In this document: positions 4,301-63,250 of the stretch, piece by piece
Layout: each line of letters starts with the position of its first letter
How positions within the stretch are numbered: the first letter of the stretch is position 1
Source: Liolophura sinensis
Lineage: Eukaryota > Mollusca > Polyplacophora > Chitonida > Chitonidae
Length of the DNA stretch: 64,000 nucleotides
Direction of reading: 5' to 3'
Assembly: GCF_032854445.1 (NCBI RefSeq)
Contig: NC_088307.1
Coordinates: forward strand, 10,664,001-10,728,000
Program-made: the position numbers and the translations under genes
Notes under the pieces: model-generated
What the model was told of the DNA's origin: nothing
Databases searched by the model: none
Seen by the model: only the letters and a program-made list of their open reading frames with translations

Positions 4301-4591
4301 CTTGATGGTAGCAGTGCCCAGCGTGCGCTCCTGGGTAGGTCTGGGAGATACATTCATTATATGACAATTCATTTCATCTTGCCACTTAACCTTGTGACTC
4401 AGGTATGTGTCACACTGGACTTTCCACATGCCCAACTCCCCACCCTACCCCAAATTAAATCACATGGGGCTGGAGCGACCTCGACCATCACGAAGAACAT
4501 GTTACCAATCTGATAACTGGATCAGCCAGGTTCCTCCGGCTAAATATATATATTTAGATTATATTTTAAATATATATTTTTAGATATATTT

Positions 4592-4690
<99 letters not shown>

Positions 4691-4848
4691 CCCCAAACAG
4701 ATGCTCACATAAAGCCTCAGATATAATTATCCATGTTCTCATTTTTTACAGTGAGTTGGTTCTGTGGAGAAGAGAAGAAGGTGTTTTGAAGACTGCTGTC
4801 CAAACTTTGAATTTCGTGCCGCGGCCCAGGCCTCCACCAGAGAAGTAG
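1229..4848 (+). CDS. NTF2-like (SnoaL/DUF4440-type) protein, copy 1, 5' partial
   Basis: Three exons join in frame: 1229-1387 (phase 1 in, phase 1 out), 3562-3733 (phase 1 in, phase 2 out) and 4752-4848, which ends in TAG. Together they encode about 142 residues of an alpha+beta cone domain. The first carries LRSEVMDRT, the helix pair and SDFYTDD; the second carries LNVEEIFILSDDLVLAFNLI; the third carries YELVLWRREEGVLKTAVQTL, the usual last two strands of DUF4440/SnoaL-like proteins. The polyadenylation signal AATAAA is at 4873-4878. The signal peptide and the Cys-rich exon seen in copy 3 are not in the window. The family includes enzymes and non-enzymatic binders, so no reaction can be assigned. 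Intact donors and acceptors suggest a live gene, but the canonical WN helix motif of the family is lost. Confidence 0.72.
1490..1602. repeat. Short imperfect tandem repeat, about 30 bp
   Basis: Three to four units of cagtcgcaaactgggacaa followed by a variable cgtttt tract, within the intron of copy 1. Confidence 0.75.
1722..1997 (-). mobile_element. tRNA-derived SINE, family A, full length
   Basis: Read on the minus strand, the element begins ggcctccgtggctcagttgg, a tRNA box A, with a box-B-like gagttcaagcccag about 60 bases later. A conserved central part (accttcccacgtacggtcgg in window sense) follows, and the tail is taaaacaccaatcaaataaa plus AT-rich TTTA units. At least a dozen more copies of this family occur in the window. 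It resembles SINEs that are common in molluscs. The short frames it yields on both strands are artefacts. Confidence 0.9.
2200..3560. repeat. Minisatellite, unit about 80 bp, with diverged flanks
   Basis: The core units carry aattttctcatattctcccg, then gcaagtatagtgtttcttaa, then ttccgatttcccctcacag. At least eight clear copies lie at 2490-3060, with shorter and more diverged versions on both sides. It fills the intron between exons 1229-1387 and 3562-3733. The last unit leads directly into the acceptor tttcctcacag of the next exon, so that splice site looks repeat-derived. Confidence 0.9.
3562..3733 (+). CDS. NTF2-like copy 1, second visible exon
   Basis: 172 bp, phase 1 to phase 2. It encodes a helix followed by the beta strands LNVEEIFILSDDLVLAFNLI. 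Acceptor tcctcacag and donor ta|gtaagt. An apparent TAG spans the exon end and is removed by splicing. Confidence 0.75.
3734..4530. other. Intron of NTF2-like copy 1, no feature recognised
   Basis: It contains a short G run near 4067-4077 and unremarkable AT-rich sequence. Small open frames on both strands (for example 4088-4435 minus) show no family signature. Confidence 0.4.
4535..4690. repeat. (AT)n microsatellite
   Basis: About 100 bases of pure AT dinucleotide, preceded by diverged tatattttaaatatat units. It lies 60 bp upstream of the last exon of copy 1. Confidence 0.97.
4752..4848 (+). CDS. NTF2-like copy 1, terminal exon
   Basis: Acceptor attttttacag, 97 bp, phase 2 in, stop TAG at 4846-4848. 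It encodes YELVLWRREEGVLKTAVQTL plus a Pro-rich tail. AATAAA follows at 4873. Confidence 0.78.
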
Positions 4849-4989
4849 CAACCTCAATGACTGTTTGCTGTGAATAAAGCTCACTGATTCAGACGAGACA
4901 TGTCTTGTCAAGCTTGTTTGTCAAACCTTGTATGTTGACGATAAGTTAGAGTACAAGTAAACTGTCATGTAAAACTAAATACATTATAA

Positions 4990-5270
4990 AACAAACACCG
5001 GCACCTAAGACCTTAAAAGAGGAAGTTGTAACTTCCCCGCTTGGCGTGCAGTATGACGGGGATAGTGCAACGACTGGTTGACCCATATCAGTATAATGGC
5101 TCGGGCGGGACGCCTTAATTGTTTTCGGTCAGGCGTCTCAGTGAAGCAGCACTAGGTAAAAGAGAGGTGGAGATCCGTCCTGCGACAAGGAGGCACATGC
5201 ACTTTAAGGAGTGAAAAATTGTTAAGTACGACGTTAATCCCAAACACTCACTCACTCACTCAATCAAGAA
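4990..5270 (+). mobile_element. SINE, family B, 5' truncated
   Basis: It contains cacctaagaccttaaaagag, then agtgcaacgactggttgacc, then gtctcagtgaagcagcacta, and the tail aagtacgacgttaatcccaa followed by CACTCACTCACT. The tRNA-like head is missing here. It is complete in the copies at 30838 and 34797. Confidence 0.85.
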
Positions 5271-5685
5271 ATAGCCTTATGCAATCCAACCGACGTCCTG
5301 TCATGTCTTATTCGACCCCAATGTGACTCCAAGTTTACAGCGTCAGTCTGTGGCACGGGAAAACGGTTCAAACCCAAGTGAAGAGAGAACCCAAGTTAAG
5401 AAAGTATCCAAGTGAAAAGAGGGTTCAAATGACGAGAGAACCCAAGTGAAAAGAAGAATTATGATTACCCCGACGAAACGAGCGGCCAACATATCTTAGA
5501 TCTAATCCAAATAGTAATCGACTAAACTCCAAAAGAGATACACACCACAGGGCATACCGTGAAAACCAATCAGCGAGAAGTCCCTAATCCAACTAGAGGC
5601 CTGTCAGTTTAATTGTTGTCTTACTCTTTACTGGCAAGACGAGTTATATCATACAGCTGCCACTTGCAGAGAAAGCAAACGTATT
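5271..5685. other. Intergenic, no gene seen
   Basis: It includes a weak repeat of aacccaagtgaagagaga-type units at 5370-5450. Nothing else is recognised. Confidence 0.4.
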
Positions 5686-5689
5686 TATT

Positions 5690-5925
5690 TACATATTTAT
5701 TTGATTGGTGATTTTCGCCGTACTCAAGGTGGAAAGAAACCGTATAGAGTCTGGGGGAAACCCATGACCATCCGACTTTAGGTTGCTATCAGATCTTACT
5801 TACGACCGACTTAGGACCAAAGAAGAAGCTAGCATGAGCTGGAACTGAACTCACAGTGGCCACATTGGTGAGCGGTTCCTTGGTCAATGTTCTGCACTTG
5901 AAATCTAACCACTAGGGCACTGATT
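5690..5925 (-). mobile_element. SINE family A, old degraded copy
   Basis: It keeps tatttgattggtgattttcgccgtactcaag and patches of the centre (agcatgagctggaactgaac), with internal deletions. It abuts a younger copy of the same family directly to the right. Confidence 0.8.
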
Positions 5926-6215
5926 TGTATTTATTTATTTTGATTGATGTTTTATGCCGTAGTCAAGAATATTTCACTTATACAACGGCGGCAAGCATTA
6001 TGGTGGGAGGAAACCGGGCAGAGTCTGGGGGAAACATACGACCATCCGCAGGTTGCGGCCAGACCTTCCGGCGTACGGCCGGAGAGGAAGCCAGCATGAC
6101 CTGGACTTCAACTCACAGCGACCGCATTGGTGAGAGGCTCTTGGGTCATTACGCTGAGCTAGCTCACTAACCAACTGAGCCACGGAGGCCCTCACTAATC
6201 CACGGAGGCCGCCTA
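5926..6215 (-). mobile_element. SINE family A, near full length
   Basis: The complete tail, centre and tRNA head (minus strand) are present. The head end is partly repeated (ccacggaggccctcactaat ccacggaggccgcc). Confidence 0.9.
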
Positions 6216-7720
6216 ATGAAGAAAAAAAAAATAATAAAAAGAAAAGAAGAAGTTGAGACGTCTCATGACTTATTCGCCAGTTAGGCGAATATCAATAAAA
6301 CGTACAGTTCCGACAGTTCATGAAAGCTGAAATTGCTTACGTTTTATTGACGACAAATGCATTTGCAACGGAGATGTGTTGTAACAACATTTCGGGAAAG
6401 TTGTGGGGTTATGCTTTATTTATAACAATTGCTTCTGCGACGGAGATGTATATCCTGCTTGCCTCTATGCAGGTAGGTTGGAAATCCCGTACTGAATGTA
6501 GTATATTCCGTCTATTTTCCTCCACAACAGGAAATCCCTGTCAAAAAAAAAAAAGAACAAAAACAATTGCACAACTCATTAGTGGTCTTGCTGTATGGCA
6601 CCTACGCACTTAACGCATGGAATCGTGTCTAAAATGGTATAAATGGAAAACAAAAAACGGATGCAATGGATGTGTAAGCGTCAAAGTTGTTAGCAAAGTA
6701 ATATGGTAATGAATAGAAATGAATGGGACGACCAAGCGCCAATGACTTCGTACTAAAACAGGTCATGAATTGGACGTGTTTGGGCCAATAATCTCAACAG
6801 AGGTACGCTTATTTGAAAAACAGATCACGACCTGGATGTGTTTGGGACAATTATCGGAACAAAAATACGCCTATTTAAAAACCAGGTCATGAAATGGACG
6901 TGTTTGGGTCAATCATCTCAACAGCCTATTTGAAAACCATGAAATTAGTTGGATGTGATTGCGGTCAGTGATGAGGGCAACAAAGTCATCTACAAAAAGT
7001 AAGTGAGAAAATAATATACATAAGTACAATGTAGTTTGTGATTCAATTTTCAATGACCTTTAGCCTCAACTCACTTAAATTTTGTGATTTAGTTCGTTTT
7101 AATTGTTTAAAACCTTTGAACAAATTTGATAATGTTTTAATGTCACACACAAGACAAGGTGTTCTTGGCATCCAGTGGAGCTTTTCTAAAAACGTCATTT
7201 CTAAAAGGGAAACAGACGTTTACCAGAAAAATAATCATTATGAGAAACAATACAAATGCATACATTCATTTATTAGATTTTTGTTTAACACAACTTTAAA
7301 AGAAGCACTTTAATGCCTTTAATGCAGTAGATAATGCCTACTGGACACGTCGTTTATGAACACACATATCTGTGTTTCATGCTGCTGTCAGTATATTAGT
7401 ATAGACGTACATCACAGAGAGTAAGACCAGAGCAGCGACGACACTGTAATAGCTGGCAAATGGTCACACGTAGCCTGGTGAAATACGGCATCTTGTCAAT
7501 CTATCCCAGTTAGGGTTTTATTTTAACTGTTTATGTAAATGCTTAAGCAATAGCCAATTACACACCCCCTAGCACCATGTTTTAAGCAGAATTAGGTAAA
7601 AAAGCAGTGATGTAAATTGCAATTGATTAGACGTCACTGGTCTACAATTACTCAAAATGCTGTGTTGTCATCAGATTTAAAATAGAGTAACATCTAAGAC
7701 CTTTTCAATACCCTTCTTCA
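6216..7720. other. Gene-poor stretch downstream of NTF2-like copy 2
   Basis: Between 6730 and 6960 there are four imperfect copies of a block containing caggtcatgaattggacgtg and gtttgggacaat (about 65 bp). The last exon of minus-strand copy 2 (the YELVLW-type exon) should lie here, but I could not find it. A block at 7370-7530 (aatggtcacacgtagcctgg) resembles one at 36216-36270 and is probably an old dispersed repeat. Confidence 0.45.
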
Positions 7721-25300: not shown

Positions 25301-28300
25301 AAATGCGATGTAAGTTTTCATTTACATGAACCTCTGAACCATAGTGTTCCATGGTATGGTGAGCTTGTAAAGATGTTTGTCTATATATATCAGTGAGTAT
25401 ATGTTTAATAAAGCAGACAAATAATGCCTGCCATCCACAGTCGCGAAGAAAACATAAAAATGATGCCAAAATCAGACGAAAGAGCGTCAAAACTTATGTA
25501 ATCTCTCTTATGCAAATGTAATCTTTAATATGTTTTTTTGATTTCTTTTTCCGAGGGAAAAAGGTATTTGAAAATATTTTTGTATGGTCGGTATTTGGGA
25601 CCAACTTTTGGTATTTATCGTTGTTGCATAATAATGTTTTATATAAGGATGTGATGACATTAGTAAACAAAGACTATAAATACCAAAAGGTGGTCCCAAA
25701 TACCTACCATACAAAAATTATTTTCAAGCGTCTTTTTCTACTTAAGGAAAAATCGGAAAAAATATTGAAGACCGCATTTAGGAGTAACTTTTCGCACTCT
25801 TTCATATCATTTTTATGTTTTCTCCACGTTTAAGCCATACTTTAGAACAGACATGGGCCTCTGACGTCCTCAGAGACCGTGAATATGGGTAAGTAGGCCT
25901 ACATGTGTGTATGAGTTAAACAAAGTTGATAACTGTTTAACATAAACACAATACTTCCATAATGCCAAACCTCCCCCACCCACCATTATCATCCACCACC
26001 ACCACCCAGCACCACCCGCCACCGGCGGGTGGTGCTGGGTGGTGTGTATCAAAAATATAGCTGCTAAAGCGGCAATGCCGGGGTTCAAGCCAGTATTGCC
26101 AGCCTATGCGGGGTCACTTCGGGTTACCTTAATGGTGTCCATGCATGGATACATAATTAACCTAATTAGAAAGCCTACATTCTTTAAAGTCATTAGTGCA
26201 TTGTAAAAAAAATTTTTTTTTTTGCACGATTGCGTTCTAATTCCTTACTTTATGTACTTTCTATGGAGTCTTGTGTTGAACGTAGTTGATTCCGAAATAA
26301 GTCTATTTTCTTTGACGACTGGTATACGAATGTCTGTTTTTGACGATTAGTTTTGCGTGTACTTTTTTATACACTAGCTCTCTGTTGTTTGATTTGAATA
26401 TTGTGTTTCATTTTCATTACAGAAAGGTCAAGTGTGTCCAACAGGATTTGAATGTAGAACAGAACAGATCATTGTGACCTCACGCTTCCCGGAATGCAGT
26501 GGTGAGGCCTGTTTAACAGTTGTCGTTAGCGTAGTACACTGTGTGGTTAATATATTTTACTCATGTGAATATTGAACTGTTTCACTGTGAATAATGTATT
26601 GTTCCTCAGGGATTTCGAACTGTATCCCTGTGAATAACAAATTCTACTATGGGAATTTCCCTGTGAATAACGTATTGCACTCTGGGAATATTGAACTGTA
26701 TTAATGTGAATAACATATTGGACCCTTGGAATTTCGAAATGTATCCCTGTGAATAACGTATTTCACTCTGGGGGTTAAAAACTATACCACTGAGAACAGC
26801 GCGTAGTACTCCGGAAATTTACAACTGTAGCAACGTGAATAACATGTTGTACGTTGTCTCATTCAGTTCATGAGGATAATTTATTAATTTATTTATTTAT
26901 TTTATTGTTGTTTTATGCCGTATTCATACTGCATTCTTATAAATAGTTCCCTGTAAATATCTTATGCCATATATTCCTGGGAAACCACTCCATGGATAGA
27001 CTTGTCAGAAAGCTATAATAGATATCTGTGAATCATGTGACAGTGACGTAGTTTACATGTACGTAGCAATGGCCGTGACATTATATACCAACAGCAGAGG
27101 CCCTGAAGAGAGCGCTTGTATGCAATGGGCCAGCGAGATACACAATACCAAGACGTCAAGTAGGGTAGCTTTGCAATGCAGCATTTAATACACGTGCCTG
27201 TGTTTCACAAACAAATCCGTCTGTCTGTTAAATAAAAAGACAACAAATCACATAACTTGAGTTATTTCAGAACCTACACAGCCACAGGCGTGTTTTTCTG
27301 ACATGTCTGATAACTCTAGAAATCCAGTTTTATTCCGGAATACTTACGAGACTATATGAGATGCGCCATTAGAGAGCAACGAGAAACGCGATGTCGCGTC
27401 ACTCGTACAACATGGTCATATGATTAAAAGGCTAAAACAAGTTTCGGGTACCGTAAGCAGAAACGGTTGCGTCTTCGGGTTATACAAATAACGCGCATTA
27501 TTAGTTATAACTTTCGCTTTCGATTGTCTCCATGTGCGTGAATTTGCTTACTTTGAAGTACGATATCACAGCCGTGCTATGTTATAAATCAAAAAGTCGT
27601 GCTTTTTAAACATACTATGGGATAATTCATCGATGCATACATAAATCTGGTCTAGTGTTGTCTTTTCTTTCATAGATCTGCGTTCGGAAGTGATGGCTAG
27701 AACGGATGTGTTGAAGAATGCCACTCTCCGCACTACAATAGCTTCTACAACCCTGAGCGACTTCTACACAGACAACAGTGTGTTCCTAATCGAACTGAAT
27801 TCACTGCTCAGGGGGCCCCCCGACGGCAGCCCAGGTACGTTTGTATCTTGTCAATAATATTTTCTTTTTACGATAACCAACATATATCTATACCACTTGT
27901 GTGTCAGTTCTCCACAGTAAAACATGATTTTTGTCATAAACCCCTCCATTCACACACTGAAACTACAATGCTCTCCAGTCACGAACACAGACAACTACGC
28001 TCAACAGTCACGCACACAAACCACAACGCTCTACAGTCACACATCCAGACCACAACGCTCTCCGGTCACACATTCAGATCACAACGCTCTCCAGTCACAC
28101 ATCCAGACCACAACGCCCTCCAGTCACACATCCAGACCACAACGCTCTCCAGTCACACATCCAGACCACAACGCTCTCCAGTCACACATCCAAACCACAA
28201 CGCTCCCCAGTCACACATACAGACCACAACGCTCCCCAGTCACACATTCAGACCACAACTCTCCCCTGTCACACATCCAGACCACAACGCTCTCCAGTCA

Positions 28301-31300
28301 CACATCCACACCACAACCCTCCCCAGTCACACATCCAGACCACAACACTCCCCAGTCACACATCCACACCACAACCCTCCCCAGTCACACATCCAGACCA
28401 CAACGCTCCCCAGTCACACATCCAGACAACAACGCTCTCCAGTCTCACATCCAGACCACAACGCTCCCCAGTCACACATCCAGACCACAACGCTCTCCAG
28501 TCTCACATTCAGACCACAACGCTCTCTGGTCACACATTCAGACCACAACGCCCTCCAGTCACACATCCAGACCACAACGCTCTCCACTCACACATCCAAA
28601 CCACAACGCTCTTTAGTCACACATGCAGACCACAACGCTCCCCAGTCACACATCCACACCACAACGCTCTCCACTCACACATCCAAACAACAACGCTCTC
28701 CAGTCTCACATTCAGACCACAACGCTCTCTGGTCACACATTCAAACCACAACTCTCCCCAGGCACACATCCAGACCACAACGCCCTCCAGTCACACATCC
28801 AGACCACAACGCTCTCCAGTCTCACATCCAGACCACAACGCTCCCCAGTCACACATCCAGACCACAACGCTCTCTGGTCACACATTCAGACCACAACGCT
28901 CCCCAGTCACACATCCAGACCACAACGCCCTCCACTGACACATCCAGACCACAACGCTCTCCAGTCACACACTGAGACCACAATGCTCCCCTGTCACACA
29001 TCCAGACAACAACGCTCTCCACTCACACATACAGACCACAACGCCCTCCAGTCACACATTCAGACCACAACGCTCTCCACTCACACATCCACTCACACAT
29101 CTCCAGTCTCACATCCAGACCACAACGTTCCCCAGTCACACATCCAGACCACAACGCTCTCCGGTCACACATCCAAACCACAACGCCCTCCACTCACACA
29201 TACAGACCACAATGCTTCCCAGTCACACATTCAGACCACAATGCTTTCCAGTCACACATTCAGACCACAACGCTCCCAGTCACACATCCAGACCACGACG
29301 CTCTCCACTGACACATCCAGACCACAACGCTCTCCAGTCACACACTGAGACCACAATGCTCCCCTGTCACATATCCAGACAACAACGCTCTCCACTCACA
29401 CACCTAGACCACAACGCTCCCCAGTCACACATCCAAACCACAACGCTCTTTAGTCACACATGCAGACCACAACGTTCACCAGTCACACCTCCACACCACA
29501 ACGCTCTTCAGTTACACAATCATACCACAACGCTCCCCTGTCACACATCCAGACCACAACGCTCTCCAGTCACACATCTAGACCACAACGCTTCCCAGTC
29601 ACACATCCAAACCACAACGCTCTTTAGTCACACATCCAGACCACAACGCTCCCCAGTCACACCTCCAGACCACAACGCTCTTCAGTTACACAATCATACC
29701 ACAACGCTCCACAGTCGCACATTCACACCACCACTTTCTCCTGTTACACCTTCAAGCTACAACACTCTCTTGTTACACACATTCACACCACAGCGATCTC
29801 CTGTCACACCTCCAAGCTGCAACACTCTCCTGTTACACACATTCACACCACAGCGATCTCCTGTCACACCTCCAAGCTACAACACTCTCCTGTTACACAC
29901 ATTCACGCCACAACGCTCTCGTGTCACACCTCCGGACCACTCCTTTCATACAATTTCACCACAACGCTCCTCTTTTACACAACTTGATCACAACGCGCTC
30001 TCCTTTTACAGAGCTTGAACACACCGCTCTCCTTTTACACACCTAGACCACAGCGCTTTCCTTTAACACAACTTGACCACAACGCTCTCCTTTCACACAA
30101 CTTGACCACACCACGTTCCTTTCGCACAACTTGACCACCAACGCTCTCCTTTCACACAACTTGACCACAACACGTTCCTTCGCACAACTTGACCACCAAC
30201 GCTCTCCTTTCACACAACTTGACCACAATACGTTCCTTTCGCAAAACTTGACTACAGCGCTCTCCTTTTACACAGCGCTCTCACTCAAATTATCATTCCA
30301 ACTAAAGACAAATAGCTCTTAATTTATTTATTTTTCTTTATTTGTTGATCTCTTTGCTTGGCCTTTGACTTACATGGGATTCCTTACTTCTATGATGGCG
30401 GTCAGGTTTATGAATGAATGAAACAGGGGTGCCCAGTGTAAACAACAATCCTTGAGCACTTCGAGCTCGCGTTACCCTTTTCCATGGGCCATTAGTTTCA
30501 GTCAAAAACACTTGACATTTTATAACTGGTTTAATTCTAAAATATGTTATATTGGATGAACTTATGTTGATTGGTGTTTTACGACGCACTCAAGAATATT
30601 TCACTAATACGACGGCGGCCATCGTTGTGGTAGAAGGAAACCGGGCAGAGCCGGAAGGAAACCCACGAAATAATATTGTGTATGGCGTTAATCAGTTAAC
30701 AAGCAAATCAATACATTTAACGGTACCATAAATAAACAAAAGCCGAAAGAGTCTTTATCCTGGTCATGTGATCCTTTAACATTTGACTAGTATCTGTAGT
30801 TCCATCTGAAGACGACACATCTGTATAAGTTATAACCGGCTCTGATAGCTCAGTTGGTACAGTTGGTGTCCTGAGTCAAGTCACACCTAAGACCTTAAAA
30901 GAAGAAGTTGTAACTTCCTCGTTTGACCTTCATCATTAGCGGGGTAGTGCAACGACTGGTCGACCCGTATCAGTATAATTTGTTGTGTGGGACGCCATCC
31001 TTGCATTCGGTAAGTCGTCTCAGTGAAGCAGTACTAGACAAAAGGGCGGTGGAAATCCGTCCTGCAACAAGGAGGCACATTGCGTGCACTCTAAGGACTC
31101 ACTCGTCATCACTTGTCTGAAAAATTGTTAAGTACGACGTTAAACCCCAAGCGATCACTTATTTCAGTATTGAAAGTATGTTGACTGCTTCTGTTTTCAT
31201 GATTTCTTACTTCCTATGCCCAGGAGAAACCTACCACCATCCGCAGGTTGCTGATAGACATATGAAATACGAGTAAGTTGCTTATATCCTCCAGTTCTTT

Positions 31301-50000: not shown

Positions 50001-53000
50001 CTATATACATAAGATGGTCTTTTGTTGGTTTTTTGATCAAAACATGAAAACAACACAAAGTACAAAAATAATTCTTGCAGATTTGTAATCGTGATGTCAT
50101 TGGGCATCAGATAGTGTGTTTATTTAACGATTTTGAGCAGTTTTAAGAATTGACCTACTTTTGAGCTAAGTTCATTTGTCAGTTTTAGCCTTGTTTGCAT
50201 ACCAAACTAAAATTTTTTCACAATATAAAAAGGGCGATCCACCTAAAAACTGTGAACGAAAAGTTGATCTCGACAGGTTTAGCCATTTTGGAGAAGAAGA
50301 TTTTTGTAGCTAATCAATAAAATTCAAAATGGGCGCTAAATCATGTGACTGGTAAAATGGCATGAAACGTCAATAATTGCTTAATATGTTCCTCATTAGG
50401 ATATTTCAATTTTTCGAGTTGACCAAGAATAATAATGGTAATGATCCAAACGATTTCAAGAGGTGTCCTGCTAAGATACTAGAGTGGACCCCTAATAATA
50501 ATTAGAACAATTTCAAGAGGTGTCCTGCTAGGATACTAGCATGTACCCCTAATAATCTAAATGATTTCAACAGACGTCCTACTAGAACACTGGCATGGAT
50601 CCCTAATAAGACAGCCTTTGGAATATTTAAGTTCTTGATTTTCATTAAGTGAAAATTGTAGGGGGAAAAAGCTGCTTCTCTGTGGTGCTTTCCTACTAAG
50701 ACAGTGTGCAAGAACAGTACGTCATTTGCACAGATCTACAAAATGTTTCATTGTTGTCTTGCACAGATCTACAAAGTGTTTTGTTGCTGTCTTGCACAGA
50801 TCTACAAAGTGTTTCATTGTTGTCTTGCACAGGTCTACAAAGTGTTTCATTGTTGTCTTGCACAGATCTACAAAGTGTTTCATTGTTGTCTTGCACAGGT
50901 CTGCAAAGTGTTTCATTGTTGTCTTGCACAGGTCTACAAAGTGTTTCATTGTTGTCTTGCGCAGATCTACAAAGTGTTTCATTGTTGTCTTGCACAGATC
51001 TACAAAGTGTTTCATTGTTGTCTTGCACAGATCTACAAAGTGTTTCGTTGCTGTCTTGTAGTGATACATGTACCTTAAAGGAATACTGTCAAGAAAATAA
51101 ATTATTTGTGCCTCCAAACTGTTTAAAAAGATCATATTGATAGTATTTGGGCCCCTGTAACCACAAACGGCCTGCTTGTAGTCGTTCTGATGCAACCGGC
51201 GACGAATACCGCTCGGCTGAATATGCATATTGTGAATTTCAAAGCGAGGCTGTTGAGCCCGTGACGTCACGGTAAGAAGACTCTGGCTCCATGCGTGCAG
51301 AAGTTCTATAATAGAAGGCTATAAACACGCGACCAAAAGGCATTTATTTCGACCCAAATTTGCTGTTGTTTGAGAAATTTTTGAAAGGTAGTTATGCCTG
51401 TGATCTGTGCAGCTTACGGATGCAACAGTCAGCTTGTCAAGGGAGGTGGAATTTCTTTCTTTGCCTTTCCAAAAGATGCGACCACGAGGAAAGTCTGGCT
51501 TCATTATTGCAAGAGGGACTTCGATCTCAAGTACCACCACAAACTGTGCAGTAAGCATTTCTCCAAATGCATGTTTGATCGAGACCCAGAGAAGTTGGCG
51601 AGCCTGGGCTATGAAAATGCAGTAGCACGGCTAACAACAGGTGCTGTACCGGACATTCCCCTGTCAATTGAGATATCGAGTCCTTTGTCTGAAGTACCGA
51701 AACAACAACAACAACAGTCTGTTCGACCTGTCAGCACACCCCACAGAAAAGCTTTCACAAAACGTAACAGGAAGAGGGTAGGTGTCAAAATGATTTCGCA
51801 AATATTGTAAAAAACTGAATTTTCCCAGTTAATTTTTTCAACAATAAAACTGTTGAAAACTACAGTAAAAGTCTCAGAGCAAAGTATAGAGTACATAATG
51901 ATAATATATAGGCCTATATATAGCTATGTTGTCATGTAGTCCAGTTACTATTAAAAAGTAGTATACGGTGTTATTTTTAATTTATAATAATCCTGCGGCG
52001 TGTCTGCAAAGTTATATGTACTTTTGGTATGGTTTTTCAGTTTAGCCCTGTATAACTGCGACTAAAGATGTTAAATTATAAACAGTTTGTCACATCTTTA
52101 CATTTTTTTTATAGAAACAATAGTATTCACCAGTTCACTTCTACCTAGTATTAAAGCTACCACAATGCTACCATATGTGGAATATTTTTTACTGTGGTTC
52201 AACATAATCAATAAGCATTAGTTCATAAAATTATTATTTTTTTATGTATATTGTATTTAAACACTTATTTCACTATTTAGGCACTGGATGAACTCCTGGA
52301 GGAATTCGAAAAAGACAAGGAAAATGCTGATCCTGAGACATCTGGAGAAAATAGCCATTTACCTTCTGAAGCTGAAAGCTTTCAAGTGATGACAGAGAAG
52401 GTTGTTATAGAAGCACCTGTAACTAGATCAGTGGCAACCCAAATTGGAAAGGCACCCTTGAAGACAATATCTAAGAAGTGACTATCTTTCATGACGTGTA
52501 TACATACATAACATGATGTAAAACTTATTTTTGCTATTAGGCCAAAGATATATGTCAGTAAATAATGTGTCATTTAAGTTTGTCTTCTCTTGATAAAGTT
52601 TGTATGTTGATCTAGGTGCATTTTATTGTACCTGAACTGTATCACCTATGGCTGCAAAGATTCAAAACAAGTGCACACTGGAAATAATGATGTGATATTA
52701 TTTACCTATTTCTATAGGACACGGCGGATCCATCGTGTAAATCTCCTGTATGCGATAAACCTGTACAACCTGGATGAGAAAAGACACAAATATCTTACAT
52801 GTTTGCAGATATAAAGCTAAAATTGTTTATTTATAGATCTATGTATATGTGGGGTGGAGAAGGGGTTGGTGCTATGAGACAATTGATATACTTGGTAAAA
52901 TAAACAGATCTGTTGTATTTTGTATACTTGATTATGCATGTATGCAGGTCTGGTGTTAATATTTTCATCATTACCCTGTCTTGAGTTTTTTTTTTTATTT

Positions 53001-55997
53001 TTATGTTTTTTTTTTAGCAAAAGTTGCTAACTACTTTTCAATGCAAATAAACTGAGCTGATATCAAATTGTTAGCCCACACGGATACAGCAGTGATGGAG
53101 TAATGTTGCCAGGAGCTCTGAAATTAAATCATGCTGGCTTCGATTCATTTCTAGATGTTCATTTTCTTGTCTAATACATGCAATTATGTACTACACATTC
53201 GTATAAATGCTATTAAATTAGAAATTTATTCCATGTCACTTACTTGTGTGGTGGATCATTGTCATCGGTGGGGCCATAGTCTTCCAAAAACTCATAAATG
53301 GACGTTAGGATGACATGTCTGTTTGTACAGTTTACAATAAAGCCTTCGTGTTCTGTGATGCAATTTATATCTAGCTGCTCTTCGTCAGTCATTTCTATTA
53401 TCCTTGGCACTTCCTGACAGCAAAGGCATTCTACGTTAGTTGGCATAATATCACAGTTCTCACAATCACACCTGAAAATAAACAGATTTGATATTCAGAG
53501 AAGATCATACATATGTTGGTACAGATTCCTTGATACGATGAGAAGTGGATTCAAAGCTTCAGCTGTCGGCGTAACATATTTGCTGTTGTACAAATATGCA
53601 CCTCGATAAATTTTTACATATTCGGACATTTAGACCAAGTTTACGTGAATCTCAAAAGACTGAATCTTATGATTTAATCGTAATATTTGACATGTGGGTT
53701 AACACAGACCTCTGAATCAAGGCATTACCTCAAAGCCGAGGATATTAGGGCACTAACCTGCTTGAGGCATCGGCAGGGACAAAGTGATAAATAACACAGG
53801 AAGGGAAAGAAAAGTGACAAACACCGGGCCATAATTTGAGAGCTACGGCTTATAGGCCTAGTAACCAGAAATTACAGTATGCTTATCGTTTTCTGTTTGT
53901 GAACTTCAACAAAACCTAGTTTTGCACTTAAAATGCTGTAATTTAAAGGTCTGTATTAACTCCCGTGATATTTTGAAAATGCCAGGATACCTGCGACCAA
54001 TTTATTTGATAGGCTGTTGAAGCCGTACTCAAGAATATTTCATTTCTGCCACGGCGGCCAGCATAAGGCCATATAGTGCCAGCAAATCGGAAAATAGCAA
54101 GGAATTAACTGAGATAAAATGTAGTCACCAGGTCAAATTGTCGGTCCGAAAATCTTCTGGTTTCTGACAGCTGTCGACGTGGTCAGACTCGCTGTCGGAT
54201 GAGTGAGGGGAACGGTTTACTGGGCTGAATTCATGGGTTCCATGCGCTGAATCCGTTCGTATAGGATCATACATGTACGGGTCTATAGGTGGTATACACA
54301 TTGGAATTTCTAGTATGTCCGTTTCACAGTCTGACATTATTTTATTTTGGTATTTTCGCGCCTAAGATCGTATGTGGTATGTGAAACAGTGTTGTTCAGT
54401 ATGGGCCCGTTCTTACGGTGACGTCACTGGGATCACGTGACGGGCACCTCATTAACTCCACTCTGGCTGACGGCTCCCTAGCGTGAGAGCCGACTATCGC
54501 CGTGGGAAGCGAGTCCAGGGGTAAACAAACATCCAGGTTCGTTATAATGAGGGATTATGAGGTAATTATTAAATAAATACTGATGATCATAAGACCTTGA
54601 CAGTATTCCTTTAATTCCTCAACCTTTTCACACAAAGAAGAGCAACTTTCAAGAGCAGGGTTTTCACAAAAGTACAGTTTTAGCAGTCAACACAGACTAA
54701 TGCCCTGAGAATATACTTGAATAAACACTTTACATACATGTGAAAAGTTTGAAGAATTACATGTACAGTAAATGTATTTATATGCAGACATTGTTTTCAC
54801 GCCATGTTTTTTTTTCTCATTTTCTGACTGGGAGGTGAATCGTGAATGCTTCTGTTTTCGCTTGTAGAGATAGACTGTGGTCCTCCCCCAGAGGTAGCCA
54901 ATGCGGTGGTCACCCTTCAGGGAGGTACCACGTGGGGAGAAAGTGCCAGAGTTCGGTAAGTAGCATAATACATGCACACTGCGAGAGTTGAAATATGAGT
55001 ACCCACTGGAGACTGTATACCATACACGTACATGTAGATTTGTTCACTGTCAGTCAGAACAGTTGATCTCATTTATTAAGTGAAACTTACATGTAGGTTA
55101 TGTACAGGTTACCATGACGAGTTAGAGATTTTCTGTTTTAGACAAAATTGCAACACTTTTTAATTACTTCTGAAGGAAGTATTAAAACGGCAATATTTCC
55201 CAGGCCCCCATGCTTTAATGCTGAAATCACAGACACCTAGTGTCAAAGGAGGTAAATCCTTTGAATATATTCTGAAAATACAGAATATAAAGTTCTTTGA
55301 TTGAATGATTATCACTTCACTCCACAACGGAAAAATTCTTTTACTGTGGTGTGAAATAAATACTGTACCTCAACTCATGTTTAGTGTTTAGTCAAAATTT
55401 ATTCATCAAACTTCAACAAAAAACTCTTAAGTCAGATTCAATGGTGGAGTAATCAACCCATATCAGGCGAAATATTCCACTTGTATAAATGGATGTATGT
55501 GTGCTGGGTGTTTAACGTCGAACTTTAAGATGCTTCAGTCACATGACAATGAGTCATTAGGTAGGTGTGTGTACATGTACACACATTGTGTCTTCTTGCA
55601 GCAGGGTGAGTCCATGCCGCCAAAGTGCTCCAGCCACTGAGGAATCATGCCGAAGACACCAGACATGACACCCCACCCAGTCACATTATGCTGACACCAG
55701 GCCAACCTGGTTGCACTATTAAACCTCTCATTGCTGATTGCCAGGCAAGGCAACAAGTACCTTTTCGGTTCTTGCTATGACTTGACCTGGGTTTGATCCC
55801 GGGTCCTTCGATGTTCCACTTGTGAAATGCTATTATTGTTGTAAATAAATAAATTTGAGTTTTGATACATGTGATTGAATCTAATATTTTTATCCATTTC
55901 AGTTGTTTTGAGAATGCGACGTCCTCTAGCGACCTTGCTTTCAACACGATTTTCTGTGGTGATGCAGGTGATTGGACGCGTCCACCTGAATGCATGG
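40506..55997 (+). CDS. CCP/sushi-repeat protein, 5' part (signal peptide plus four CCP domains)
   Basis: Six exons join in frame: 40506-40578, 42487-42681, 46552-46725, 48853-49026, 54868-54955 and 55903-55997, ending phase 1 at a donor, so the gene continues beyond the window. Exon 1 gives MWVLGKEICVSVVLVIAYIV then CAVK, a signal peptide. The next three exons each hold one whole CCP domain with phase 1 borders, and the last two hold one split domain. Every domain has four cysteines, the conserved W near the third-fourth pair and the central Gly-Phe. CCP modules bind proteins in complement regulation, adhesion and receptors. Four alone do not name the protein. No membrane segment is seen yet. 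The third CCP intron contains a 3.5-kb two-gene insertion. Confidence 0.85.
40579..42486. other. CCP gene intron 1
   Basis: Contains a SINE B copy at 41885-42145. The minus-strand frame 41297-41055 has Cys-rich text (SCSMTN, CGGQACQNNGTC) but no exon-like borders. Confidence 0.5.
41885..42145 (+). mobile_element. SINE family B, head missing
   Basis: From ttcagcattaatgagataat through ctcagtgaagcagcactaga to a (CACT)n tail. It lies within intron 1 of the CCP gene. Confidence 0.88.
42487..42681 (+). CDS. CCP domain 1 exon
   Basis: 195 bp, phase 1-1, acceptor tctgttaacag and donor c|gtaagt. DCGEIPPVDHVGH then TVASLSCQRGFTQSG, KVCGDNDTWTIPSG and FQC give the four cysteines, the W and the GF of a sushi fold. 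It has one N-glycosylation sequon (NLT). Confidence 0.88.
43955..44052. repeat. (TA)n microsatellite
   Basis: About 95 bases of TA broken by two ttta interruptions. Confidence 0.97.
44270..44432 (+). mobile_element. SINE family A, 5' truncated
   Basis: taggtctgtcagcaacctgt through gagtacggcgtaaaattact and a TAAATAAATC tail. Confidence 0.88.
45315..46395. repeat. 162-bp tandem repeat, seven copies
   Basis: Units contain gactcagtctgctaaaagtc, aagctctgatcagtgtggtt, agctgcatctgtaagtcaca and atataaatttttttaaaact. The copies differ at a few percent of positions. It lies 160 bp upstream of CCP exon 2. Confidence 0.97.
46552..46725 (+). CDS. CCP domain 2 exon
   Basis: 174 bp, phase 1-1, acceptor cattctttcag, donor g|gtaaga. 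SCGDPGAIRNGEKDSYVYTV then VGYSCYEGFEMVG, TLCLASGSWSVPAPTC. All four Cys and the W are present. Confidence 0.9.
46750..47005 (+). mobile_element. SINE family A, diverged full-length copy
   Basis: The head gagccaccgtggccgaaagt, the centre aatgtggtcactgtgagttc and the tail tgtaaaacaccaatcaaata are present. The centre is diverged. Confidence 0.85.
47060..47230 (-). mobile_element. SINE family B, tail half, inverted
   Basis: Window sense: gattgagtgagtgcttgggg then tttaac, ccttgttgcaagacggcttt and tctagtgctgcttcactaag. Confidence 0.85.
47235..48170. repeat. 30-bp minisatellite with embedded TTAGGG blocks
   Basis: Unit: tttgacacatgtgatggaat then cccttttagg, about 30 copies. At 47304-47530 several units are extended by two to four copies of ttaggg. 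Long frames on both strands (GIPFRFDTCD and SNLKGIPSHV repeats) arise because the 30-bp unit is a multiple of three and lacks stops. They are not genes. Confidence 0.97.
48171..48852. other. CCP gene intron 3, right part
   Basis: Unique AT-rich sequence ending in the acceptor ttgtttctgtag. Confidence 0.5.
48853..49026 (+). CDS. CCP domain 3 exon
   Basis: 174 bp, phase 1-1, donor g|gtaaag. IQCPVIQSPTNGYLVG then TIRFECSEGFTPAG, AKCQLDKTWTNQPFEC. Reading continues past the donor for some codons, but the domain ends here. Confidence 0.9.
49027..50405. other. CCP gene intron 4, left part
   Basis: AT-rich, with A runs near 49193 and 49717. No exon or repeat was recognised. Confidence 0.45.
50410..50625. 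repeat. Imperfect tandem repeat, about 60 bp, three copies
   Basis: Units share aacaatttcaagaggtgtcc then tgctaggatactagcatg and acccctaataat. Confidence 0.85.
50734..51060 (+). repeat. 33-bp tandem repeat, ten copies, resembling 3' splice sites
   Basis: Unit: atctacaaagtgtttcattg then ttgtcttgcacag, exact period 33. In the sense of the host gene each unit ends in a pyrimidine-rich stretch plus CAG, preceded by a ctac branch-point-like motif. Since 33 is a multiple of three, all frames stay open, giving the false frames on both strands. It ends 15 bp before the TTAA-bounded element. Confidence 0.97.
51075..51093 (+). repeat. Left terminus: TTAA plus TIR
   Basis: ttaaaggaatactgtcaag. It pairs without mismatch to 54596-54614. 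Confidence 0.9.
51261..51270. promoter_or_regulatory. GTGACGTCAC palindrome (CRE-like), left
   Basis: It contains the CREB/ATF consensus TGACGTCA, 124 bp upstream of the THAP start codon. ggtaagaag follows. The mirror copy is at 54418-54427. A weak TATA-like ctataaac lies at about 51319. Confidence 0.6.
51394..51777 (+). CDS. THAP gene exon 1
   Basis: It holds the whole THAP finger and the basic stretch. The frame runs ten codons past the donor before a stop. The gtaggt donor and the good fit of exon 2 argue for splicing. Confidence 0.85.
51394..52481 (+). CDS. Small THAP-domain DNA-binding protein (194 aa), two exons
   Basis: Exon 1 is 51394-51777 (128 codons, donor agg|gtaggt) and exon 2 is 52281-52481 (66 codons plus TGA), both phase 0. 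Residues 1-90 form a C2CH THAP zinc finger: C5 and C10 in VICAAYGC, W35, C52 and H55 in LCSKHF, and the closing AVP box at 84-86 (TTGAVPDIP). FFAFPKD carries the expected FP. A QQQQQ run and a basic stretch (KRNRKR) follow, then an acidic, probably helical tail (LDELLEEFEKDKENAD). THAP fingers bind specific DNA, and P-element transposases and many host factors use them. There is no catalytic domain here, so a role as regulator or end-binding factor of the surrounding element is inferred. Confidence 0.87.
52281..52481 (+). CDS. THAP gene exon 2
   Basis: Acceptor cactatttag, then ALDELLEEFEKDKENADPET and a Ser/Thr/Lys-rich end KTISKK before TGA. No known domain. Confidence 0.7.
   Translation, partial: ALDELLEEFEKDKENADPETSGENSHLPSEAESFQVMTEKVVIEAPVTRSVATQIGKAPLKTISKK
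52712..52769 (-). CDS. Ballast gene exon 3
   Basis: Acceptor tctcatccag. It encodes KLYRFIAYRRFTRWIRRVL and a TAG stop. Without this exon the domain would lack its conserved AYR-x-F-x-x-W end. Confidence 0.8.
52712..54337 (-). CDS. Stand-alone P2X7-type ballast-domain protein (164 aa), three exons
   Basis: Minus-strand exons 54337-54129, 53471-53244 and 52769-52712 join at phase 2 borders. Residues 1-70 are acidic, Ser/Pro-rich and without a fold signature. The ballast domain spans 70-164: W70-C71-x-C73-x2-C76, MPTNVECLCCQEVP (C85, C87, C88), CITEHEGF (C107, H111), C118, then KLYRFIAYRRFTRW near the end. The pattern WCxCGxC, CCxE, CITxHxGF, AYRxFxxW is that of the cytosolic C-terminal ballast region of vertebrate P2X7, which binds zinc and guanine nucleotide. 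There is no channel part here. AATAAA on the minus strand lies at about 52826. The gene runs towards the THAP gene inside the TTAA-bounded element. Confidence 0.82.
53244..53471 (-). CDS. Ballast gene exon 2
   Basis: Acceptor gtttattttcag, donor aa|gtaagt. The stop seen in the unspliced frame is formed by the donor itself. It carries the cysteine cluster and CITEHEGF. Confidence 0.85.
53472..54128. other. Ballast gene intron 1
   Basis: It holds a SINE A remnant at 53995-54080 and is otherwise unique. Confidence 0.6.
53995..54080 (-). mobile_element. SINE family A tail fragment nested in the element
   Basis: ccaatttatttgataggctg then gccgtactcaagaatatttc and cggcggccagcataaggcc. It inserted into the ballast gene intron or was carried with it. 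Confidence 0.75.
54129..54337 (-). CDS. Ballast gene exon 1
   Basis: ATG at 54337, MSDCETDILEIPMCIPPIDP and onwards to TDNLTW, donor tg|gtgact. Start chosen as the first ATG of the frame and the only one near the palindrome-marked promoter. Confidence 0.75.
54418..54427. promoter_or_regulatory. GTGACGTCAC palindrome (CRE-like), right
   Basis: It lies 81 bp upstream of the ballast start codon. Read towards the gene it is gtgacgtcaccgtaagaac, the inverted counterpart of gtgacgtcacggtaagaag on the left side. Confidence 0.6.
54596..54614 (-). repeat. Right terminus: TIR plus TTAA
   Basis: cttgacagtattcctttaa, exact reverse complement of the left terminus. Confidence 0.9.
54868..54955 (+). CDS. 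CCP domain 4, first half exon
   Basis: 88 bp, phase 1 in and 2 out, acceptor tcgcttgtag and donor cg|gtaagt. It encodes IDCGPPPEVANAVVTLQGGT then TWGESARVR. Confidence 0.85.
54956..55902. other. Intron splitting CCP domain 4
   Basis: Contains the dispersed repeat at 55500-55760 and is otherwise unique. Confidence 0.5.
55500..55760 (-). repeat. Dispersed SINE-like repeat, minus orientation
   Basis: Window sense tgctgggtgtttaacgtcga, then ccgccaaagtgctccagcca and cgaagacaccagacatgaca, ending near attgccaggcaaggcaacaa. Related in layout to 21360-21590. Confidence 0.5.
55903..55997 (+). CDS. CCP domain 4, second half exon
   Basis: 95 bp, phase 2 in and 1 out, acceptor tatccatttcag and donor g|gtaagt. 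RCFENATSSSDLAFNTIFCG then DAGDWTRPPEC completes the four cysteines. One NAT sequon. Confidence 0.85.
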
Positions 55998-59235: not shown

Positions 59236-59309
59236 TGGCTATGCATTCCAATACATGTGCCTACTCATTGATGGCATTATTGCCAAACTTTGATAAATAC
59301 TCTTTAATA

Positions 59310-62300
59310 TAATTCCACATCAGGTACTCACAGTGTACCATGTACAGCTGTAGCCCAGTGTGATAATACCACATCAGGTACTCTGATCATACTGTACCAT
59401 GTACAGCTGTAGTCTGGTCTGATAATTCCACATCAGGTACTCATACTGTACCATGTACTGCTGTAGTCTAGTCTGATAATACCACATCAGGTACTCCGAT
59501 CACACAATACCATGTCCAGCTGTAGCCCAGTGTGATAATACCATACCAGGTACTCATACTGTACCATGTACAGCTGTAGTTTAGTCTGATAATACCACAT
59601 CAGGTACTCACACTGTACAATGTACAGCTGTAGTCTAGTCTGATAATACCACGTCATTTACTCATACAGTACCATGTACAGCTGTAGCATAGTCTAATCT
59701 GATAATACCACACCAGATACTCTGATCATACTGTACCATGTGCAGCTGTAGTCTAGCCTGATAATACCGTACCAGGTACTCATACTGTACCATGTACAGC
59801 TGTAGTCTGGTCTGATAATTCCACATCAGGTACTCCGATCACACAATACCATGTACAGCTGTTGCCCAGTCTAATAATACCACATCAGGTACTATGATCA
59901 TACTGTACCATGTACAGCTGTTGCCCAGTCTAATAATACCACATCAGGTACTCTGATCATACTTTACCATGTACAGCTGTTGCCCAGTCTGATAATACCA
60001 CATCAGGTACTCTGATCATACTGTACCATGTACAGCTGTTGCCCAGTCTAATAATACCACATCGGGTACTATGATCATACTGTACCATGTACAGCTGTTG
60101 CCCAGTCTAATAATACCACATCAGGTACTCATACTGTACCATGTACAGCTGTAGCTCAGTCTGATAATACCACATCAGGTACTCATACAGTACCATGTAC
60201 AACTGTAGCCCAGTCTGGTAATACCACATCAGGTACTATGATCATACTGTACCATGTACAGCTGTAGCCCAGTCTGATAATACCACATGAGGTACTCTGA
60301 TCACACAATACCATGTACAGCTGTAGCCCAGTGTGATAATACCATACCAGGTACTCATACTGTACCATGTACAGCTGTAGTTTAGTTTGATAATACCACA
60401 TGAGGTACTCTGATCATACAATACCATGTCCAGCTGTAGCCCAGTGTGATAATACCATACCAGGTACTCATACTGTACCATGTACAGCTGTAGTTTAGTC
60501 TGATAATACCACATCAGGTACTCTGATCATACTGTACCATGTACAGCTGTTGCCCAGTCTGATAATACCACATCAGGTACTCTGATCACACAATACCATG
60601 TACAGCTGTTGCCCAGTCTAGTAATACCACATCGGGTACTATGATCATACTGTACCATGTACAGCTGTTGCCCAGTCTAGTAATACCACATTGGGTACTA
60701 TGATCATACTGTACCATGTACAGCTGTAGCCCAGTCCAATAATACCACATTAGGTACTCTGATCATACTGTGCCATGTACAGCTGTTGCCCAGTCTAATA
60801 ATACCACATCGGGTACTATGATCATATTGTACCATGTACAGCTGTAGCCCAGTCTGATAATACCACATCGGGTACTATGATCATACAATACCATGTCCAG
60901 CTGTAGCCCAGTGTGATAATACCATACCAGGTACTCATACTGTACCATGTACAGCTGTAGTTTAGTCTGATAATACCACATCAGGTACTCACACTGTACA
61001 ATGTACAGCTGTAGTCTAGTCTGATAATACCACATCGGATACTCTGATCACACAATACCATATACAGCTGTAGCCCAGTCTGATAATACCACATTTGGTA
61101 CTCTGATCATACTGTACCATGTACAGCTGTTGCCCAGTCTGATAATACCACATGAGGTACTATGATCATACTCTACCATGTACAGCTGTAGCCCAGTCTA
61201 ATAATACCACATGAGGTACTCTGATCACACAATACCATGTACAGCTGTAGCCCAGTCTGATAATACCACATCGTGTACTACGATCATACAATACCATGTC
61301 CAGCTGTAGCGCAGTGTGATAATACCATACCAGGTACTCATAATGTACCATGTACAGCTGTAGTTTAGTCTGATAATACCACATCAGGTACTCACACTGT
61401 ACAATGTACAGCTGTTGCCCAGTCTGATAATACCACATCGGGTACTATGATCATACTCTACCATGTGCAGCTGTAGCCCAGTCTAATAATACCACATGAG
61501 GTACTCTGATCACACAATACCATGTACAGCTGTTGCCCAGTCTGATAATACCACATCGGGTACTCTGATCATACAATACCATGTACGGCTGTAGTTTAGT
61601 CTGATAATACCACATGAGGTACTCTGATCACACAATACCATGTACAGCTGTAGCGCAGTGTGATAATACCATACCAGGTACTCATACTGTACCATGTACA
61701 GCTGTAGTTTAGTCTGATAATACCACATGAGGTACTCTGATCATACAATACCATGTCCAGCTGTAGCCCAGTGTGATAATACCATACCAGGTACTCATAC
61801 TGTACCATGTACAGCTGTAGTTTAGTCTGATAATACCACATCGGGTACTCTGATCATACTGTACCATGTACAGCTGTTGCCCAGTCTGATAATACCACAT
61901 TAGGTACTCTGATCATACTGTACCATGTACAGCTGTTGCCCAGTCTGATAATACCACATCAGGTACTCCGATCATGCAATACCATGTACAGTTATGTCCT
62001 TCTCTGATAATACCACGTGAGGTACTCTGATCACACACTATCATGTACAGCTGTTGCCCAGTCTAATAATACCACATCGGGTACTATGATCATACAGTAC
62101 CATGTACAGCTGTGTCCTTCTCTGATAATACCATGTCAGGTACTCTGATCACACACTATCATGTACAGCTGTTGCCCAGTCTGATAATACCACATCGGGT
62201 ACTATGATCATACAATACCATGAACAGCTGTGTCCTTCTCTGATAATACCACATCAGGTACTCTGATCACACACTATCATGTACAGCTGTTGCCCAGTCT

Positions 62301-62580
62301 GATAATACGACATTAGGTACTATGATCATACTGTACTATGTACAGGTGTTGCCCAGTCTAATAATACCACATCGGGTACTATGATCATACAGTACCATGT
62401 ACAGCTGTGTCCTTCTCTGATAATACCACATCAGGTACTCTGATCACACACTATCATGTACAGCTGTTGCCCAGTCTGATAATACGACATCAGGTACTAT
62501 GATCATACTGTACCATGTACAGGTGTTGCCCAGTCTAATAATACCACATCGGGTACTCTGACCATGCCGTGCCATGTACA
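59310..62580. repeat. Satellite-like array, unit about 52-59 bp, close to 60 copies
   Basis: Unit: ctgataataccacatcaggt then actctgatcatactgtacca then tgtacagctgttgcccagt. The ctgatca segment is present or absent, giving the two lengths. Higher-order groups recur (gtagtttagt type, ttgcccagt type, gtccttctctg type from 61985). The repeated minus-strand 90-codon frames come from the array. Confidence 0.97.
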
Positions 62581-63250
62581 GTTCTTTGCTTGTTTTTTTT
62601 ACCACTCACCTGAGAAAACATAGTTTGATTTGACACCTATAGATCTGAAATGATTTGCTGTTTTTTGCACAGAATTGAGGGTGCAACACAAAAGCTAAAG
62701 ATTTTTACTTAATTCTATAAATGGCAAATCCTCCTTTTTTGTAACTGAAGAAAGAGGGCAAGAGTAAACTTGTGACCCTTTGTAAAATTGCATGTTTTGA
62801 TCTGTAGCTAAATCATTGGTCTATATCTAATTTACCAATCAGTACCACATTATTTGTGTGGATGAATAAAAATTATTTATTTTTTTTTATTTTGTTTTCT
62901 TTATTTTATAAAACCACACACTGTATTCAGACAGTACCGCATTGTTCAGTAATACTACTTGTACATTAGCTCTCATCCGGACAGTATCATATATAGTGTC
63001 ATCAACGGTGTACTCTATTTCTGACAGTACTCCATTTCTGACAGTACTCCTTTGGTTAGTTGCAAGCCTGCAATTGTGTATACAGAATTACATTCACACT
63101 GCAGAGGCTTGTAAAACCATGTGCTTTCTGAGAGTAAAATTGTACACATTTGTATTCATGAAGTTTTGATAAAACTAGTTTGTGAGAACTGTACATACTT
63201 GTTTTGACATTACCACACATTGAAGTGCTTTTTAAAACCATCTACATGTA
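62581..63250. other. Unique spacer between two arrays
   Basis: No gene is recognised. Near the right end short motifs (ctgacagtactcc) foreshadow the next array. Confidence 0.5.

Follow-up and report, generated by a model that had tools for sequence, protein, structure and literature searches.

The window analysed here, a stretch of 64,000 nucleotides of the Liolophura sinensis genome, contains at positions 51075-54614 a 3,540-bp unit with TTAA and a 15-bp terminal inverted repeat (TIR) at each end, between which lie a gene for a THAP protein and a gene for a ballast-domain protein. What kind of unit would carry these two genes and no transposase is the question that this locus raises. Comparison with relatives in the same genome leads us to conclude that the unit is very probably a recent, non-autonomous, internally deleted copy of a Kol0-type Kolobok DNA transposon, as judged from genomic sequence. 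The kind of element is already known, and the window copy is a further member of it, as a deletion derivative.

The sequence TTAAAGGAATACTGTCAAG occupies the left end of the unit and its perfect reverse complement the right end (Table 1). With up to three mismatches allowed, the window held two matches to it against a chance mean of 0.05, and 0/100 shuffles had two; the 19-base perfect inverted match (TTAA plus 15-bp TIR) reported by the first-pass annotation is present and lies beyond chance. An exact search of the genome (609 Mb, 632 contigs) finds the 19-mer at 37 positions, 20 forward and 17 reverse, versus no match for the same pattern read backwards as a control, and a 17-mer with one mismatch allowed gave 58 matches versus 4 for the backward control. 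Thirty of the 37 exact copies fall in 20 stretches, which make 19 loci (two stretches form the locus on contig C11), two are the window's own, one came from a later search and four on contig C13 were left out. Long TIRs were considered and rejected: the match between the ends stops after 19 bp and resumes at positions 180-205, for about 25 bp, so that the TIR is not continuous. A CRE-like palindrome, TGACGTCA, lies in the subterminal inverted patches, at 183-184 bp from the two ends. At a similar distance, copy L021 has the palindrome only on the left and L034 only on the right; L036 has it on both sides (the right one imperfect), and L017 has it on the left, with the right partner shifted. 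This patch is possibly a shared promoter or a transposase site.

Table 1. Coordinates of the window element (window positions), of the exons of its full-length relative L025 (parent positions) and of the deletion junctions in a second family
Feature	Position	Strand	Basis or remark
Left end: TTAA target and 15-bp terminal inverted repeat (5'-AG...)	51075..51093	+	sequence read; 37 exact genome copies
Left subterminal inverted repeat with palindrome GTGACGTCAC	51258..51278	+	183 bp from end; upstream of THAP start codon
Transposase exon 1 (ATG, THAP DNA-binding domain)	51394..51777	+	Pfam PF05485; same exon in L025
Transposase exon 2	52281..52481	+	splice donor after 52477, or stop 52479-52481 if intron retained (194-aa product)
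Transposase exon 3, first 12 bases	52718..52729	+	remainder of gene, including all of the DDE core, deleted
Deletion junction	52729..52730	.	L025 bases 1661-5164 missing; microhomology AT
Ballast (KolX) exon 3, truncated	52712..52769	-	authentic from 52769 to 52730, then IRRVL codons and stop
Ballast (KolX) exon 2, CxCxxC...ECLCC cysteines	53244..53471	-	comparison with L025, Pfam
Ballast (KolX) exon 1 (ATG)	54129..54337	-	comparison with L025
Right subterminal inverted repeat, same palindrome GTGACGTCAC	54410..54430	-	184 bp from end; upstream of ballast start codon
Right end: 15-bp terminal inverted repeat and TTAA	54596..54614	-	sequence read
L025 transposase exons 1-5	320-709, 1212-1408, 1649-2139, 2276-2527, 2706-2889		
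L025 transposase exons 6-9	3046-3294, 3585-3756, 3992-4143, 4843-5042		
L025 ballast exons	6774-6566, 5904-5677, 5204-5045		opposite strand to transposase
Second-family junctions	L043 1914/7742; L044 2226/8707; L045 2243/8404; L042 2349/9584		

A full-length relative, L025 (G000:C10:50419-57469; 7,051 bp), has 19-base ends identical to those of the window element and serves as the parent for coordinates. The two are 99.2% identical over parent positions 1-1663 and 99.1% over 5163-7051, with nothing matched between. Letter-level comparison shows that the window copy lacks parent bases 1661-5164, or 3,504 bp, with AT common to both breakpoints, and the extra sequence of L025 (about 3.5 kb) sits exactly at the window junction. 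With two mismatches allowed, the 26-mer spanning this junction has a single match in the genome. In L025, eight GT-AG introns join the THAP exons to a DDE part in a transposase gene of nine exons, which were predicted by eye and reading frame from the genomic sequence alone. Exons 4-8 carry GGDARCDSPG, ITDRH, DVWH, an H-H-C-H finger (H..H..C.H) and NENS. The ballast protein of L025 (198 aa, three exons) is encoded on the other strand and runs towards the transposase, and the stop codons of the two genes lie 2 bp apart. It matches Pfam PF20478 (P2RX7_C) with an E-value of 2e-12 and aligns to residues 471-594 of the P2X7 chain with E 0.0055, a weak match if taken alone. In that search P2X7 sequences took the first three places (E 0.0055-0.03); the next three were cyanide dihydratases (E 0.07-0.1), regarded here as chance matches.

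The products of the window copy can be read against this parent. Exon reading confirmed the two small convergent spliced genes that had been described between the ends, and the DDE core is absent there, as had been stated in the first-pass annotation. The predicted THAP domain was borne out by Pfam (PF05485, E 4.6e-14), and AVPDIP was read by eye near the position of the AVPTIF-like box. The claim that both products are complete did not hold: the THAP gene consists of exons 1 and 2 of the nine of the transposase plus 12 bases of exon 3, and what had been taken for a separate accessory gene is the transposase N-terminus instead. Its product would be 194 aa long if intron 2 is retained and 225 aa if it is spliced to the exon 3 remnant. 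Of the ballast gene, exons 1 and 2 survive along with 40 bases of exon 3, after which five codons (IRRVL) contributed by the sequence across the junction lead to a stop. The resulting protein has 164 residues versus 198 in the parent; the first 160 follow the parent, and the last 38 of the 198 are lost with 4 others in their place. The lost part includes the cysteine of PSC, which aligns with LPSC of P2X7. The ballast domain had also been claimed for the window copy; it is clear in the L025 protein, and the window protein scores 23.0 bits against PF20478 (E 8.2e-05), just below the 23.5-bit cut-off. Pfam gave no match to single ballast exons, and the spliced protein was required. Those exons that the window copy still has are open, and both products are truncated because parent bases 1661-5164 are absent.

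Young copies of the family were collected from 13 loci with at least 95% identity to the parent and both ends, together with the window element (n = 14); L015, L016 and L023, with one end read, and the older L014, L017 and L021 were left out. All parent segments are held by two of the 14, namely L025 and the C11 locus (18.5 kb, with insertions). The other 12 are internally deleted and fall into six junction classes, i.e. five deletion classes of the parent besides that of the window. The junction 646/5767 is found in six copies and 385/5814 in two, and the single-copy classes are 368/5712, 160/6507, 1796/5706 (also with an insertion) and the window's own. The 19-base match recurs in the genome (37 exact occurrences), which a check on copy number had asked about; the 3,540-bp two-gene unit itself is single-copy. 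A DDE-transposase relative sharing the TIR exists in the same genome, and the loci on C10, C11 and C4 hold most exons. None of these three has a fully open transposase: the C10 gene (L025) shifts frame by one base close to the end of exon 3, the C11 gene is interrupted by a stop in exon 1 and loses its frame in exon 6, and the C4 locus begins at parent position 1201 and thus has no exon 1. A fourth locus, on C8 (L023), keeps parent positions 4717-7051.

An older set of copies bears on whether the two genes form a self-standing selfish unit, with both proteins accessory to a foreign transposase. Six such copies (L017 and L034-L038; about 3.0-3.6 kb, with pieces about 67-84% identical to the parent) lack the parent segment that begins at about 1749 (at 1600 and at 1744 in one copy each) and ends at 5315 (at 5353 in one copy), and with it the transposase core. 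This deletion is shared or closely similar across at least six places, and the spread of a transposase-less class favours the self-standing unit. Both genes, however, are damaged in 6/6 copies. THAP exon 1 is absent in L035, L037 and L038 and has frame changes in L017, L034 and L036, and the ballast exons have stops or frame breaks in all six. A net loss of 28 nt in ballast exon 2 is common to five of the six, L036 being without it, which indicates that a broken ballast gene was itself multiplied and that part of the spread, at least, needed no intact ballast gene in cis.

A second, diverged Kolobok family provides a further comparison. Its element on C4 is 9,397 bp long, has the ends TTAAAGTAAA[C/G]GACCG and carries THAP, transposase and ballast sequences in the same convergent order; its THAP exon is damaged, with a match to positions 17-87 and one stop. 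Four relatives (L042-L045) are without the core and keep THAP and ballast, each with a different junction (Table 1). In the genome scans, no stop interrupts the THAP and ballast matches of these four. TTAA-bounded TIR pairs delimit 3,020 bp in L044 (perfect) and 3,739 bp in L045 (with one mismatch); none was found in L043 or in L042, for which the stretch is incomplete on one side. The retention of open THAP and ballast matches in these four forms again favours a self-standing unit, but four different junctions are what separate deletions would give. Moreover, the window form is unique and its proteins are truncated parts of the genes of the 7-kb parent. With a unique junction here and both genes damaged in all six copies of the older class, we rejected a self-standing two-gene family and regard it as very improbable.

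The convergent arrangement was also surveyed across the genome, using clusters built from the 45 transposase and 96 ballast matches listed, with chosen gaps of 4 and 8 kb. A convergent ballast cluster lies within 12 kb of 12/20 transposase clusters; these 12 cases are not independent, as four belong to the window's own family and four to one tandem array. Of the remaining clusters, one of the 20 has only a divergent ballast cluster and seven have none, and 0/20 have one on the same strand. No transposase match lies within 12 kb of 41 of the 53 ballast clusters. The THAP scan yielded at least 127 matches, with the best 150 of 248 candidates scored. Two tandem arrangements were seen besides. At G000:C13:2560497-2627512, THAP, transposase and ballast matches recur in a constant order, some of them interrupted by stops, in a run of diverged Kolobok units spaced mostly about 10 kb apart. 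Multimers have been described for KolobokP (PMC9587614); the C13 units have a ballast gene. L042 (G000:C16:22600-25000) is one unit of a tandem array on C16, where C16:599-435454 holds at least nine THAP and at least eight ballast matches in a 759-kb contig. Several of these are about 23.7 kb apart and represent a tandemly repeated segment with a deleted Kolobok copy whose THAP and ballast exons are open.

The superfamily can be read from the ends and from the parent transposase. Inside the TTAA, the window element begins with AG and finishes with CT, in keeping with 5'-RR ... YY-3' termini, and a 5'-RR rule is given for Kolobok in the available text of PMC9587614 (Kojima and Bao 2022). TTAA is present at both ends in 13/13 tabulated young copies (C11 left out), partly by construction because the search pattern contained TTAA, and their 8-bp outer flanks differ. 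Kolobok transposases are described with THAP, DDE, C/DxxH and H2CH features (PMC6004289, PMC9587614). The N-terminal THAP domain (C2CH, P-W-F, AVPTIF-like box) is found here, and L025 has a DDE with C/DxxH between the second D and E and an HHCH zinc finger, which are absent from the window copy; these catalytic features were assigned by motif, and the catalytic D and E are putative. The sole Pfam match of the L025 DDE part is a sub-threshold one to Mutator (E 0.031), so it is the motifs, the TTAA target and the termini that place the element in Kolobok, rather than a family model or a tree.

PiggyBac elements have termini of CCY type. A non-autonomous piggyBac-type element, as proposed in the first-pass annotation, would share the TTAA target, which is common to the piggyBac and Kolobok superfamilies, but the 5'-AG ends fit the Kolobok 5'-RR rule (PMC9587614), and the matching transposase of the full-length relative combines THAP, DDE, DxxH and HHCH features as given for Kolobok. 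The ballast protein here also has cysteines, which the piggyBac versions are said mostly to lack (PMC9587614). We consider a piggyBac origin to be highly implausible; by the sequence characters of TTAA, 5'-AG ends, DDE, DxxH and HHCH, the element is a Kolobok and not a piggyBac. The part of the proposal that stands is a non-autonomous TTAA transposon needing a transposase in trans.

It had further been stated that no described DNA transposon with this cargo was known to the first-pass annotation. Such a transposon is described: according to PMC9587614, families of the Kol0 group of Kolobok code not only for the transposase but also for a protein named KolX, whose fold is that of the cytoplasmic ballast domain of P2X7, and P2X7 itself is attributed there to a fusion involving KolX. 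A literature search for the ballast domain of P2X7 together with transposon or transposase, or for KolX, found nothing beyond PMC9587614. The elements described here resemble the Kol0 group (type Kolobok-1_XT), as far as its published text was compared, in TTAA, 5'-AG termini, a THAP/DDE/HHCH transposase and a KolX with the P2X7 ballast fold. The second gene for such a protein is recognized in L025 by sequence match and is truncated in the window copy, which, in contrast to L025, lacks both the DDE core and the end of KolX. KolX is convergent to the transposase here; the Kol0 orientation is not stated in the text of PMC9587614 that was compared.

A CCP-like exon was read by eye on the right flank at 54868-54955, and its 29 aa gave no match in Pfam; the claimed location inside an intron of an unrelated gene is supported to this extent, by eye and on the right side only. 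With the right-flank probe, no empty or paralogous site was found among the 42 matches listed (best 40 of 1292 candidates scored), and the probe recovered its own site and a dispersed repeat of about 100 bp. This repeat covers window positions 54656-54780 and occurs in at least 39 other places of the genome at 81-88% identity. On the other side, a 33-bp tandem repeat (50726-51058, 10.1 copies) ends 16 bp before the insertion. Elsewhere in the window, a 59-bp tandem repeat at 59309-62581 has about 57 copies and a 403-bp higher-order period, and positions 28001-30000 show strong strand asymmetry (GC 0.53, GC skew -0.65), the other 2-kb steps having GC 0.34-0.43. A captured or domesticated host gene pair, lying in an intron and flanked by repeats by chance, might be imagined from the open retained exons and the nearby CCP-like exon, but it has next to no probability given the ~99% identity to dispersed TIR-bounded copies with different outer flanks and the cutting of both genes by the deletion.

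The Kolobok deletion derivative that we favour is explained by the order of parts in the parent. The full element of about 7.05 kb carries a nine-exon THAP-DDE transposase and a three-exon KolX gene running towards each other from the ends, so that both genes have their 5' exons close to a terminus, with the catalytic exons between them. Given this layout, internal deletions tend to leave THAP and ballast between intact TIRs. The comparison with L025 shows that the window copy goes back to a 3,504-bp deletion, at which 2 bp of microhomology are seen; its cause would likely be imperfect gap repair after excision, by analogy with P elements. Since its ends are intact, a complete Kolobok transposase could mobilise the window copy in trans.

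Similar derivatives are known from other systems, here compared with the text available for each. Xenopus T2 elements have TTAA and an AGGRR end motif (PMC6004289), and the window copy, with TTAA and AGGAA, resembles the T2-MITE and other non-autonomous Xenopus Kolobok elements, which are presumed to be mobilised in trans (PMC6004289). In contrast, T2 is a MITE family with many subfamilies; the form seen in the window is one deletion copy of 3.5 kb, and it still has exons. Internally deleted P elements, including KP with a 207-aa product, likewise have a THAP transposase gene cut internally to give a short product (194 aa here) (PMC7776569), and non-autonomous P elements may stop an invasion (PMC12393704). 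They belong to another superfamily with another target. We know of no ballast gene in P elements. By analogy with KP, which damps transposition of P elements, THAP-only proteins from deleted Kolobok copies with a THAP exon that is still open, such as the 194-aa product of the window copy, might bind the terminal regions and damp transposition of the family, a speculative reading that we consider unlikely.

If this were true, the layout would make self-limiting derivatives an almost automatic product of every Kolobok invasion. A TTAA element with THAP and ballast genes and no transposase is what an internally deleted Kol0 Kolobok looks like, which closes a tempting but mistaken lead. Kojima and Bao trace the P2X7 tail to KolX (PMC9587614), and the full-length and deleted copies in this genome could be used to ask what KolX does for transposition.
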